Shown: positions 2,108 through 13,855 of the stretch, one piece after another
Position numbering within the stretch: the stretch's first letter is position 1
How the letters are laid out: each line of letters begins with the position of its first letter
Assembly: GCA_016188625.1 (NCBI GenBank)
Contig: JACPHL010000042.1
Location: 1-13,881 of the forward strand
Direction of reading: 5' to 3'
Source of the DNA: Candidatus Rokuibacteriota bacterium
GTDB lineage: Bacteria > Methylomirabilota > Methylomirabilia > Rokubacteriales > JACPHL01
Length of the DNA stretch: 13,881 bases
Position numbers and translations under genes: made by a program
Notes under the pieces: model-generated
The model's input: the letters and a program-made list of their open reading frames with translations, nothing else
Databases searched by the model: none
What the model was told of the DNA's origin: nothing

Positions 2108-2848
2108 GTGATCCGGGTCGGCCGGATCCCCTACCTGAACTGCGAGCCGTTCTACCACGCCCTCGACCACCCGACCGTGCTCGACCTCCCGCCCCGGGCC
2201 ATGGGGGAGGCCGCCCGGCGCGGGGAGATCGACGCCGCCCCCCTGTCCGTGGTGGACGGCTGGGCGCTCGCCGAGGCCTTCGGGCCGCTCCCCTTCGGGA
2301 TCGCGGTCCGGCGGGCGGCCCGGAGCGTGCTCCTCTTCTCGCGCCGCCCGCTGGCGCGCCTGGACGGGGCTGCCATCGCCGTGACCCCGGAGACCTCGAC
2401 CTCCGTGCTCCTCCTCCGGGTCCTGCTCGCCCTCCGCTACGGGGTGGCGCCCCGCGCCTGGGTGGGCCCCGAGGAGGAGGCGGACGCCCGGCTCCTCATC
2501 GGCGACGGCGCCCTCCAGGCGCGAGGTCGGCTGGAGGCGACGTACCCTCACCGGATCGACCTGGCCCTCGAGTGGCACGCCTGGACCGGCCTCCCCTTCG
2601 TCTTCGCCCGCTGGGTGGTCCGGCGGGGCTGTCCGCCCGAGGAGGTCCAGACCCTGGCTCAGGCTCTCGGGGCGGCGATCGACCGGGGGCTCGCCGCGCT
2701 CGGCGAGATCGGAACCAAGCGCCGGGACCTGGGCCTCACCTCGGAGGAGGTGGCCGAATACCTCCGGGGGTTCGCCTACCGGCTCGGCCCCGACGAAGAG
2801 AAGGCCGAGGCCGAGTTCCGCCGCTGTCTCGAGAAGCTGGAGGCCTGA
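2108..2848 (+). CDS. mqnA: Chorismate dehydratase
   Basis: MqnA dehydrates chorismate to 3-(1-carboxyvinyloxy)benzoate, the entry step of the futalosine pathway. The 246-residue protein opens with the family signature RIPYLNCEPFYHAL (about residues 6-19), followed by the EIDAAPLSVVDG segment and a periplasmic-binding-protein-like fold with no signal peptide, so it is cytoplasmic. It is a little shorter than many family members. The GTG start at 2108 is one base after the mqnE stop, and its TGA overlaps the mqnC ATG by one base (TGATG), implying translational coupling and a single transcript for mqnE-mqnA-mqnC. Confidence 0.93.
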   Translation: MIRVGRIPYLNCEPFYHALDHPTVLDLPPRAMGEAARRGEIDAAPLSVVDGWALAEAFGPLPFGIAVRRAARSVLLFSRRPLARLDGAAIAVTPETSTSVLLLRVLLALRYGVAPRAWVGPEEEADARLLIGDGALQARGRLEATYPHRIDLALEWHAWTGLPFVFARWVVRRGCPPEEVQTLAQALGAAIDRGLAALGEIGTKRRDLGLTSEEVAEYLRGFAYRLGPDEEKAEAEFRRCLEKLEA

Positions 2849-3921
2849 TGCTGGACCAGATCCTGGAGAAGGTCGAGGCCGGGAAGCGCCTCGACCGGGC
2901 CGAGGGGCTCTGGCTCCTCACCGAGGCCCCGCTCCTCGACCTCGGCCAGCTCGCCCAGGGCGTCCGCCACCGCCTCCACCCGGAGAAGCGCGTCACCTTC
3001 GTCATCGATACCAACCCCAACTACACCAACGTCTGCGTCACCGACTGCCAGTTCTGCGCCTTCTACCGCCGGCCCGGCGACCCGGAGGCCTACACCCTGA
3101 GCGTGGAGGAGGTCCTGGCCAAGATCGAGCGGGCTGCCGCGCAGGGGGCAACCACCGTCCTCCTCCAGGGCGGGCACAACCCGGCGCTCCCGCTCGACTA
3201 CTACCTCACCCTGGTCCGGGAGACCCGGCGTCGCTTCCCCGGGGTCACCCCCCACTTCTTCACCGCCTCGGAGGTCCAGACCATCGCCGAGGTGAGCGGC
3301 CTCGGGGTCCGAGAGGTCCTGACCAGGCTCCGGGAGGCCGGGCAGCTCACCCTCCCCGGCGGCGGCGCCGAGATCCTCTCCGAGCGCGTCCGCAAGCGGA
3401 TCAGCCCCAAGAAGGGCGGCCCGACGGCGTGGCTCGAGGTCCACCGGGAAGCCCACTGCCTGGGGTTCCGCACCACCGCCACGATGATGTACGGCCACGT
3501 CGAGCAGCCCGAGGACGTGCTCGACCACCTGGAGGCGATCCGCGCCATCCAGGACGAGACCGGGGGGTTCACGGCCTTCATCCCCTGGTCCTTCAAGCCC
3601 GGGAACACGCTGCTGGAGAAGTGGATCAAGCGCTACGCCGGCCCCAACGCCTACCTCCGGATGCTCGCGGTCGCCCGCTGCTACCTCGACAACTTCCCCC
3701 ACATCCAGGCCTCCTGGTTCTCCGAGGGGAAGCGGACCGGGCAGGTGGCCCTCCACTTCGGGGCCGACGACTGGGGTGGGACCCTCTTCGAGGAGAACGT
3801 CCACCGGGCGGCGGACTACGTCAACACGATCACGGTGGACGAGATCGTCGCCCTCATCCGCGAGGCCGGCTTCCGCCCCGCCCAGCGCACCACCCTCTAC
3901 GAGATCCTGAAGGTCTACTGA
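2848..3921 (+). CDS. mqnC: Cyclic dehypoxanthine futalosine synthase (radical SAM)
   Basis: MqnC is the radical SAM enzyme that cyclises dehypoxanthine futalosine into the spiro intermediate used by MqnD. The 357-residue protein carries Cys63, Cys67, Cys70 (CVTDCQFC) and the family segments LQGGHNPALP, LPGGGAEILS, TTATMMYGHVE and LHFGADDWGGTLFEENV, which separate it from the MqnE paralogue upstream. The C-terminus (AQRTTLYEILKVY) is the normal end of the family, so the gene is intact. Its last part is duplicated downstream: bases 3867-3908 recur at 4351-4392 with two mismatches, after an inserted protease gene. The start overlaps the mqnA stop by one base. Confidence 0.93.
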   Translation: MLDQILEKVEAGKRLDRAEGLWLLTEAPLLDLGQLAQGVRHRLHPEKRVTFVIDTNPNYTNVCVTDCQFCAFYRRPGDPEAYTLSVEEVLAKIERAAAQGATTVLLQGGHNPALPLDYYLTLVRETRRRFPGVTPHFFTASEVQTIAEVSGLGVREVLTRLREAGQLTLPGGGAEILSERVRKRISPKKGGPTAWLEVHREAHCLGFRTTATMMYGHVEQPEDVLDHLEAIRAIQDETGGFTAFIPWSFKPGNTLLEKWIKRYAGPNAYLRMLAVARCYLDNFPHIQASWFSEGKRTGQVALHFGADDWGGTLFEENVHRAADYVNTITVDEIVALIREAGFRPAQRTTLYEILKVY

Positions 3922-3927
3922 CGCACG

Positions 3928-4326
3928 ATGGGTGTCTTCAAGGTGGACGTGCGGATCGCCAAACCCGGCCGAAGGCCGCGCTGGGTCCGCATCCCCCAGG
4001 TCATGGTGGACTCCGGTGCCGAGCTCAGCCGGCTTCCGGAAGCCGATCTCCGATCAGCAGGTATCGAGGTCTTCAAGAAGGATCAACTCTTCGTGATGGC
4101 GAACGGGCAGTATGTCACGCGGAACGTGGGGATGGCGCTGCTCGAGGCCGGGGAGTTTAAGACCGTGGACGAGGTCGTTTTCGCCAGGCCTGGCGACCTC
4201 AAGCTGCTCGGCGCGAGGACGCTCGAAGGCTTCAACGCCGTGGTGGACCCGCAGAAGAAAAAGCTCGTCGCCGCGGGCCCGATGCCCGCGGCCGGATTCA
4301 GACCGGATCGAGGTGGACGTCCGTAA
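3928..4326 (+). CDS. Retropepsin-like (clan AA) aspartic protease family protein
   Basis: A 132-residue single-domain protein. The catalytic motif is MVDSGA with Asp28 (D-S-G in place of the commoner D-T-G), followed by the hydrophobic LPEADLRSAGI helix typical of small retroviral-type proteases. The C-terminal LLGARTLEGFNAVVDP segment matches the end of this family. Such proteins would be active as dimers; substrate unknown. It starts 6 bases after mqnC without a clear ribosome site. Base use is less GC-biased than the neighbours (AAGAAGGATCAACTCTTCG, GAGTTTAAGACC, GTCGTTTTCGCC), which suggests recent transfer. It separates mqnC from a duplicated mqnC tail, so it looks inserted. Confidence 0.75.
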   Translation: MGVFKVDVRIAKPGRRPRWVRIPQVMVDSGAELSRLPEADLRSAGIEVFKKDQLFVMANGQYVTRNVGMALLEAGEFKTVDEVVFARPGDLKLLGARTLEGFNAVVDPQKKKLVAAGPMPAAGFRPDRGGRP

Positions 4327-4405
4327 GGATCTGCGCTCGACCCGCGGCGTCGGCTTCCGCCAGGCCCAGCGCACCACCCTCTACGAGATCCTCCGCGAGT
4401 ATTAG
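4307..4405 (+). pseudogene. Orphan duplicate of the mqnC 3' end
   Basis: Bases 4351-4392 match mqnC bases 3867-3908 at 40 of 42 positions, and both copies reach a stop codon exactly 13 bases later (TAG here, TGA in mqnC). Translated, the copy ends GFRQAQRTTLYEILREY against GFRPAQRTTLYEILKVY in MqnC. Upstream, RIEVDV at 4304-4321 may align with TITVDE of MqnC, but the stretch between (4322-4350) is not clearly alike and is 6 bases longer. There is no radical SAM part, so it is a remnant, not a gene. The differing last residues suggest it came from a diverged mqnC rather than from a fresh copy of this one. Confidence 0.8.
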
Positions 4406-4428: not shown

Positions 4429-5322
4429 TTAGAGAGGGGCGGCGAGAAACTCCAGGATCGCGTGCACGATCGCCTCGGGGGCGTCCTCCTGCAGGAAGTG
4501 GCTGGCGTCCGCGATCTCGCAGGTCACCGCGTGGGGGTAGACCCGCTGCCACCGCCGCAGCACCGGCTCGGGAAGCACGGGGTCGCGCATCCCCCACACC
4601 AGCAGCACCGGGATGCTCGTGAAGATCGGCAGCGCCTGCTCGATTCGTCTCATGTCGGGGTAAGACGGATCGGCCTCGTCCACCGGGATGTCGCGAGACC
4701 AGCAGAGGAGGGCGCGGCGAGAGTCCAGGATCGGAAAGGGCGCCAGATAGGCTGCCATCACGCTCTCACTCAGCCGCTCCGGGCGATGCGTCGTGCCTTT
4801 CAGCGCGGGCTCGACGTACCCGTTCCGCTCCAGCACGAACCGCTCGCCCCGCGGCGAGCGGATCAGCTCCAGCAGCCGGGGAAGCGGCCCGCCCGGCCAC
4901 GGGGCGAACGCCCAGGTGTTCATCAGGACCAGCCGCTTGACGCGCTCCGGATGGCGCATCGCGAATCCGAGCCCGACGGGCCCGCCCCAGTCGTGGAGCA
5001 CCAGGGTGACCGCGTGCAGATCGAGGGAGAGGAGGAGCGCCTCGACGTTGGCGATGTGGTGCCGGAGCCGATACGGGTAGGGCTCGGGCGGCACCTCCGA
5101 CTTCCCCATCCCCATGTGGTCCGGCACGACGCAGCGGTACCGCCGCGAGAGCGGTGGGATGAACCGACGGTAGAGATACCCCCAGGTGGGATCCCCGTGG
5201 AGCAGGACGACGGGCTCCCCCTGCCCCTCGTCCACGAAGTGCAGCAGGACACCGTTGACGCGGCCGTACCGCGGCGCGAACGGGAAGGTTCCTTCGAAGG
5301 TCTCGTCCCGGATCTCAAGCAT
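4429..5322 (-). CDS. Haloalkane dehalogenase / OleB-like alpha/beta hydrolase
   Basis: A 297-residue alpha/beta hydrolase with no signal peptide. HGDPTWGYLYR (residues 42-52) is the oxyanion loop typical of haloalkane dehalogenases and OleB beta-lactone decarboxylases. LHDWGG (109-114) gives an Asp111 nucleophile followed by Trp112; Asp247 (WGMRDPVLPE) and His275 (DASHFLQED) complete the triad. Family members usually have Glu or Asn where Asp44 stands. An Asp nucleophile excludes an ordinary serine esterase. The ATG at 5322 directly abuts the mqnD stop (TAGATG), so the two are co-translated. Its role beside a menaquinone gene is unknown: dehalogenation, lactone decarboxylation or another hydrolysis are all possible. 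Confidence 0.82.
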   Translation of the reverse strand: MLEIRDETFEGTFPFAPRYGRVNGVLLHFVDEGQGEPVVLLHGDPTWGYLYRRFIPPLSRRYRCVVPDHMGMGKSEVPPEPYPYRLRHHIANVEALLLSLDLHAVTLVLHDWGGPVGLGFAMRHPERVKRLVLMNTWAFAPWPGGPLPRLLELIRSPRGERFVLERNGYVEPALKGTTHRPERLSESVMAAYLAPFPILDSRRALLCWSRDIPVDEADPSYPDMRRIEQALPIFTSIPVLLVWGMRDPVLPEPVLRRWQRVYPHAVTCEIADASHFLQEDAPEAIVHAILEFLAAPL

Positions 5323-6150
5323 CTAAATAGGGTCGATAGGGGGAACGGCGGAGAGCAGTTCCTCGTCCACCGCGCGGCGGTAGAGGGTCTCGAGGGCCCG
5401 CCGGCCTTCGGCCCCGAGCGCCAGGGTGTAGTCGTTCACGTACATGAGGACGAAGCGCCGGCAGGTCTCCCGGTCGATCCCCCGCCCGTATTCGAGGGCG
5501 TAGTCGAGGGCCTCGTCCACGTGGGCCTGAGCGTAGCGGATCGAGGCGCGGAGGGCGTCGGAGAGCCGGCGACCGAGCGCCTCTCCGAGGTCGCGGCGGA
5601 TGACGTTGATCCCCAGGGGGACGGGGAGGCCCGTCTCGACGGTCCAGCGCTCCCCGAGGTCGAGAACCTTCCTGAGCCCGAGCGCCTCGTAGGTGATCTG
5701 CCCCTCGTGGATCAGGACGCCGGCGTCGGCCTGCCGGTCGCGGACCACGCGCGGGATCTGGTCGAAGGCGACCACGATGACCGGCGGGTCGCCCAGGGCG
5801 AGGCGGAGGAGGAGGTTGGCGGTGGTCCCGTACCCCGGGATCGCGATCACCTTCTCGCGGAGGGTCCGCTCCCGGTAGGCCCGCCGCGCCACCACGATGG
5901 GGCCGTACCCCTTCCCCATCGACGCCCCGGGGTCGAGGATCCGGTAGCGCTCGGCGACCGCCGGGTAGGTGGCGCAGGAGATGGCGGTGACCTCGAGGTC
6001 CCCCTCGAGGGCCCGCCGGTTCAGGGACTCGATCTCCTCCAGCACGTGCTCGACCCTGACCCCCTCCAGCGGGACCTTGCCGTGGGTCAGGGCGTAGAAC
6101 ATGAAGGCGTCGTCGGGGTCCGGGCTGTGGCCGATCCGGATCACGGGCAT
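5323..6150 (-). CDS. mqnD: 1,4-dihydroxy-6-naphthoate synthase
   Basis: MqnD splits cyclic dehypoxanthine futalosine to release 1,4-dihydroxy-6-naphthoate, the last dedicated step of the early futalosine pathway. The 275-residue cytoplasmic protein has the N-terminal IGHSPDPDDAFMFYAL signature (residues 6-21), GYGTTANLLLRLAL in the middle, and LIHEGQITY with His148 at the position of the catalytic His known from the Thermus enzyme. GAGGAGG lies 5 bases upstream of the ATG. It is separated from mqnE-A-C by the protease insert and the hydrolase, and transcribed towards them. The divergent tetR start is only 38 bases away. Confidence 0.93.
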   Translation of the reverse strand: MPVIRIGHSPDPDDAFMFYALTHGKVPLEGVRVEHVLEEIESLNRRALEGDLEVTAISCATYPAVAERYRILDPGASMGKGYGPIVVARRAYRERTLREKVIAIPGYGTTANLLLRLALGDPPVIVVAFDQIPRVVRDRQADAGVLIHEGQITYEALGLRKVLDLGERWTVETGLPVPLGINVIRRDLGEALGRRLSDALRASIRYAQAHVDEALDYALEYGRGIDRETCRRFVLMYVNDYTLALGAEGRRALETLYRRAVDEELLSAVPPIDPI

Positions 6151-6841: not shown

Positions 6842-6854
6842 CACCTGAGGAGGA

Positions 6855-6898
6855 GGCGTCGATCCCTCGCTCCACACGTTCCGCTCGGGACCGACGCC
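6855..6898. repeat. Palindromic repeat, short form (44 bp)
   Basis: Arms GGCGTCGATCCC (6855-6866) and GGGACCGACGCC (6887-6898) are complementary with one mismatch, around a 20-base centre containing TCGCTCCACACGTTCCGCTC. The same arms and centre ends occur at 13691-13855 with about 120 extra bases inserted. It lies between the convergent tetR and PhzF-like genes. No coding potential. Confidence 0.7.
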
Positions 6899-13674: not shown

Positions 13675-13690
13675 CCACCCCCCCCTGGGA

Positions 13691-13855
13691 GGCGTCGGTC
13701 CCTCGCTCCACACGCTCCGCGGCGCACCCGTCTGTGGCTCGCCGGGCGGGGCCCCTCCTCCTTCGTTCCGAGCCCGCGAGCCGGCTTCCCCACCCGGCTC
13801 ACTCACGGCGGGCACCCGCGCCGCTCCGCTTAACGTTCCGCTCGGGGCCGACGCC
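13691..13855. repeat. Palindromic repeat, long form (165 bp)
   Basis: Arms GGCGTCGGTCCC (13691-13702) and GGGGCCGACGCC (13844-13855) pair with one G-T wobble and match the arms of the short form at 6855-6898. Next to the left arm is CTCGCTCCACACGCTCCGC and before the right arm ACGTTCCGCTC, together giving the centre of the short form. The extra bases lie between direct repeats ACGCTCCGC (13712-13720) and ACGTTCCGC (13833-13841). No coding potential; the stretch from 13675 to the end of the window holds only this. Confidence 0.65.

Follow-up and report, generated by a model that had tools for sequence, protein, structure and literature searches.

The window analysed here is a stretch of 13,881 nucleotides from Candidatus Rokuibacteriota (contig JACPHL010000042.1), in which mqnE, mqnA and mqnC are followed by a retropepsin-like protease gene, a second mqnC 3' end (the tail), and then an abhydrolase gene and an mqnD-type gene, both on the minus strand (Table 1). 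The nearest relatives of the abhydrolase (69-71%) do not lie beside mqn genes. Elsewhere in the window, two neighboring genes on the minus strand are 78% identical over 120 bases (249-368 and 704-823) and form a tandem paralogue pair, the second gene of which matches MaoC-like dehydratases. A 33-base sequence, GGAGGCGTCGRTCCCTCGCTCCACACGYTCCGC, is present at 6852-6884 and 13688-13720 and is evidently an abundant dispersed repeat, with 59 copies in the 2.6-Mb genome at up to three mismatches (32 forward, 27 reverse; reversed controls gave 0); in most of eight copies compared conservation extends ~60-70 bases downstream, and several are located just behind stop codons.

Table 1. Features at the mqnC/mqnD junction of the window.
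Feature	Coordinates	Strand	Evidence
mqnC (cyclic dehypoxanthinyl futalosine synthase), ends in LKVY-stop	2848..3921	+	TIGR03699 above cut-off; groups with G003 in tree
mqnC 3' core, repeat copy 1 (contains 3867-3908)	3858..3908	+	46/51 to 4342-4392
Last codons LKVY, stop, and spacer to protease start; of a kind common with L033 (CAAAGTCTACTAACGCACA)	3909..3927	+	
Retropepsin-like aspartic protease, 132 aa	3928..4326	+	PF13975 (E 1e-5), motifs, predicted fold, purifying selection against G047 copy
Extra mqnD 3' end (LDPV-stop; TCAGACCGGATCGAG on + strand)	4298..4312	-	Matrix of mqnD ends; position as in L033
Joint, 29 bases	4313..4341	.	
Putative displaced mqnC 3' end (tail), ends in LREY-stop	4342..4405	+	Decayed at conserved residues
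Abhydrolase (haloalkane dehalogenase-like)	4429..5322	-	Start codon abuts mqnD stop
mqnD-type gene, facing mqnC	5323..6150	-	PF02621

Duplicated gene ends around the protease gene

Bases 3867-3908 and 4351-4392 match at 40 of 42 positions in direct orientation, and 13 bases beyond each copy lies the last base of an in-frame stop codon, all in agreement with the original prediction. The repeat can be extended to 3858-3908 and 4342-4392 with an identity of 46/51, after which the first end continues as GAAGGTCTACTGA (LKVY-stop, the last base of the stop at 3921) and the second as CCGCGAGTATTAG (LREY-stop, last base at 4405), these final 13 bases agreeing at 4 positions. The 29-base heart of the repeat has no further occurrence in the 2.6-Mb assembly with up to three mismatches allowed, and no second full copy of mqnC was found in the genome, in which the other matches are mqnE and relatives at 41%. 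The repeat evidently reflects homology and not chance, with the proviso that 40/42 needs weighing against a very conserved stretch, the mqnC ends of relatives reaching 39/42 against the same core. The value for the tail is nonetheless higher than that of every relative, and its best alignment among 75 mqnC ends is to the mqnC of the window itself; a resident origin of both cores would predict this.

The agreement of 4/13 at the last codons against 46/51 in the core argues that the tail is not a plain copy of the mqnC end. The [KR]x[YFW]-stop pattern is rare by chance (~1.4e-4 per position expected in the window), and LREY-stop is thus likely to be the true mqnC end of another version; the LKVY/LREY difference indicates, from sequence, that the two ends derive from different mqnC versions. 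Substitutions in the core of the tail, judged against the ends of relatives, fall on conserved residues (E to G, A to V, P to Q), and the tail appears decayed, as in sequence released from selection; most likely it does nothing itself.

An extra mqnD 3' end, overlooked in the original prediction, lies on the opposite strand within the 3' part of the protease ORF. Scored with a matrix of 24 relatives' mqnD 3' ends, 4298-4312 is the top match on both strands window-wide (chance 1.2e-6 per position) and outscores the real mqnD end at 5323; it sits where the real mqnD end lies behind a protease remnant in a related genome, L033 (see below). Homology of 4286-4350 to mqnC is not significant when compared with shuffles (31.5; 95% null 34), the joint shares one 8-mer with mqnC (chance ~1.6%), and, GATC apart, no clear microhomology is seen in the segment 4306-4341. 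By eye, 4311-4323 also resembles the start of the protease gene over a short stretch, which was judged to be chance.

The protease gene and its relatives

The retropepsin-like gene proposed to lie between the repeat copies is borne out by its PF13975 match, motifs and predicted fold. The PF13975 score of 26.4 bits is below the curated cut-off of 28.2, PF13650 is also just under its cut-off in Pfam, and TIGR03698 scores 22.7, below its curated cut-off of 57.35. The D[ST]G active site (DSGA, residues 28-31) and LLG (LLGA, residues 93-96) motifs are both intact, and the predicted model has a retropepsin fold (pLDDT 87.9), for which Foldseek reports a probability of 1.0 to HIV-1 protease and to the human DDI1 RVP domain with TM-scores of ~0.5-0.7; a profile of the protease family compared with the PDB ranks the ApRick protease first. 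The family part stops near residue 122, and the final ~10 residues run into the joint. Comparison with the copy in genome G047 gives a dS of 1.17 and a dN of 0.14 over 74 codons, which argues that the gene has been under selection. From its sequence and predicted model it looks like a conserved clan AA (retropepsin-like) protease gene with an intact active site.

Relatives of the protease are present in 45 of the 60 genomes of the order, at one to nine per genome, and some are internally deleted (G047 and L033). The closest, that of G047 (L113, 1504-1773, minus strand), has codons 17-51 missing in frame, catalytic Asp included; the remaining frame is nonetheless open and conserved. The protease ORF is less GC-biased than its neighbors, as first noted, with a GC content of 64.9% and a GC3 of 0.80 compared with 0.91-0.98 in mqnE, mqnA, mqnC, abhydrolase and mqnD. 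As an argument for recent import this was dropped, since low GC3 is usual across the protease relatives (0.60-0.90).

The mqnC/mqnD junction in related genomes

In relatives within the order mqnC faces mqnD, mostly at a distance of 0-300 bases, and has neither the protease, the abhydrolase nor a second tail beside it; comparison of mqnC 3' regions, proposed originally as a check, thus finds that relatives without the protease are also without a second tail. A second tail is likewise missing in L033 (JACQWA010000156.1; the same genome as L009 and G039), which carries a remnant of the protease. Its mqnC ends in LKVY-TAA-CGCACA followed by the first 15 protease codons, with 14 of 15 residues identical to the window, and an internal deletion has fused this start to the final codons of the protease; the mqnD stop is one base past the protease stop, with no second tail between. 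Both protease ends being present, the gene was presumably once whole at this locus. The window and L033 proteases are 83% identical over 52 bases, a divergence no lower than that of mqnC itself, which leaves a recent transfer unproven. The idea that the 3' half of the window's mqnC is foreign was rejected, sliding identity giving no jump toward L033.

Phylogenetic trees place the window as sister to G003, a member of another family of the same order, both for MqnC (95/92) and for MqnD (100/98); in the MqnE and MqnA trees the window branches deepest within the order, but support for this is not strong. The G003 locus is split over two contigs (the end of C387 and the start of C84) and consists of mqnC, ~180 bases, and mqnD, with no protease, abhydrolase or tail at the junction. 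L033 groups with L034, L040 and L007, all of which are without the protease behind mqnC. The presence of the protease at the mqnC locus is evidently patchy, and transfer of a piece of the locus fits this better than does common descent, which would need four losses or more, although divergence is too great for proof. LKVY-type mqnC ends are retained in L003 and L033. The window's own family (f1) is represented by one genome in the comparison set, and an intact arrangement in which an mqnC ending in LREY-stop faces abhydrolase-mqnD was not found among the relatives compared.

The mqnC 3' end also appears to have been rewritten in L034 and L040, the relatives of L033, where mqnC ends early (..TTLYERV-stop and ..TTLYERVGSGLTP-stop) and a GGGGTCAGG/CCTGACCCC repeat adjoins. 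In G028 (L007, 2571-3200) the mqnC/mqnD junction contains a HigA-type antitoxin-like ORF, recognized by eye, and other short ORFs, not the protease, suggesting that the junction accepts different genes.

Origin of the junction and comparison with known systems

The region is best read as an ordinary but unusually legible recombination scar, of a known kind of imprecise recombination. The reading that we favor, and to which we give an even chance, is that it joins two versions of one convergent junction, a piece containing an mqnC end, the protease and an mqnD stub having been imported and the old mqnC end displaced in a manner like that of homology-facilitated illegitimate recombination (HFIR). 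Version X would have mqnC (LKVY-stop) and protease facing mqnD, an arrangement of which L033 has a decayed form, and version Y, whose intact existence we infer, would have mqnC (LREY-stop) facing abhydrolase-mqnD. A linear DNA piece of X would have entered a cell carrying Y and paired by homology with the resident, the crossover probably lying in the very conserved mqnC 3' core, and the other side would have been closed illegitimately, joining X's mqnD 3' end to the last ~64-90 bases of the resident mqnC. As an outcome, mqnC would be whole with X's last codons, the protease and a 15-base mqnD stub would be gained, and the resident mqnC end (its last ~64 bases) would be displaced to become the tail, such that a single event could account for all four features of the region (the altered end of mqnC, the protease gene, the mqnD stub, and the tail). 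We infer the direction of transfer from the absence of the protease in G003 and from the fact that the nearest match of the tail is the mqnC of the window itself. Of the two origins originally offered for the tail, that of an old end displaced corresponds to this import, and that of a fragment from a diverged mqnC corresponds to its mirror image.

In the mirror case X would be native and a Y piece (mqnC end, abhydrolase and mqnD) imported, with homology in or beyond mqnD and the illegitimate joint just within the former 3' end of mqnD; in this case the tail would be foreign and the mqnD stub the displaced native end. The joint is the same as in the favored import and one event covers the same four features; moreover, the abhydrolase too is missing from this place in all relatives, and the protease with its spacer is about as diverged from L033 as mqnC is, matching common descent. 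We nonetheless regard it as unlikely, since the ancestor of the order would need to have had the protease, with losses in G003, L003, L034/L040 and the other relatives, Y would have to be a near relative given that the window MqnD is firmly with G003, and the tail resembles the resident mqnC most closely. A tandem duplication of the mqnC-end/protease/mqnD-end unit within one lineage, with the second protease later lost and the abhydrolase acquired, would leave the order mqnC end, protease, mqnD end, mqnC end, another gene, and mqnD, but is improbable: uniform decay gives no such contrast as that between the last codons and the core, the retention of LKVY-type ends in L003 and L033 places the change elsewhere than on the mqnC side, and no remnant of a second protease was found behind the tail.

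The original prediction compared the layout with that left by elements that insert in gene 3' ends and restore them, and a site-specific integrative element carrying the protease into the mqnC 3' end, with att cores of ~42 bases, would indeed give a restored gene end, a repeated core and a displaced old end. We consider it extremely unlikely. No integrase, transposase or other recombinase family matches any of the 17 window ORFs scanned with Pfam, upholding the earlier observation on integrases, and the window has no RNA family or tRNA usable as an insertion site. In L033 the same protease follows mqnC with no second core, the insert terminates in an mqnD 3' end, and the suggestion that the protease might lie next to other repeated gene tails failed at 29 other protease loci, none of which has a flanking repeat (best scores 0-16, compared with 36 for the window). 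A general protease-carrying integrative element is effectively refuted by these sequence comparisons. An assembly or binning artefact, in which two strains (X and Y) are joined in one metagenome contig, has in its favor that the contig analysed comes from a metagenome assembly that is fragmented into 344 contigs and 84% complete, but it is very improbable given that the joint has at most a few shared bases, too short for an ordinary k-mer misjoin, and that MqnC and MqnD, on opposite sides of it, give the same kinship.

Under the favored import, the region would preserve, in an uncultured lineage near Rokubacteria, a legible trace of DNA exchange between distant relatives, which affected a housekeeping locus and left both displaced gene ends visible. 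It would also be a warning that an att-like layout, in which cargo is flanked by copies of a gene end, does not need an integrase to arise. A doubtful extension is that accessory genes of these bacteria could enter repeatedly at the convergent mqnC/mqnD junction, where the near-invariant mqnC 3' end would act as homologous anchor, and that one-sided homologous recombination might carry retropepsin-like genes from species to species as passengers, with no recombinase involved.

The protease gene resembles the TIGR03698/TIGR02281-like clan AA aspartic proteases and the ApRick protease (5c9d) in its retropepsin fold, D[ST]G and LLG motifs, and single short domain, and differs in scoring below curated cut-offs and in its location behind mqnC. 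Integrative elements whose att sites are gene 3' ends likewise bring in sequence that restores the gene end and displaces the old one, but here no integrase was found, the protease occurs elsewhere without repeats, and a relative has the gene without a second end. HFIR is described in Streptococcus pneumoniae, Acinetobacter baylyi, Pseudomonas stutzeri and, rarely, E. coli, and in its products foreign DNA is trapped between a border formed by homology and an illegitimate one, the latter mostly with 3-10 bp of microhomology (PMC3240628). The window has a homologous border in the mqnC 3' core, 46/51 of which is common to both copies, and a border joining unrelated sequences, where the mqnD-type end at 4298-4312 is followed by an mqnC end from 4342; GATC is a possible microhomology at the illegitimate joint. 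HFIR usually brings a deletion in the recipient, and none is evident at the window junction, where relatives have less DNA, not more. The window therefore differs in being an old scar alone, with no clear microhomology and no matching recipient deletion shown. A similar explanation has been given for the orphaned 3' regions of T6SS effector and Rhs loci (PMC5361080). The window differs from these in involving a menaquinone (futalosine) housekeeping gene and a dead tail of ~64 bases with no toxin/immunity role, but the likeness is in the arrangement itself, in which there is a conserved upstream anchor, a new 3' end arrives, and the old 3' part stays downstream.
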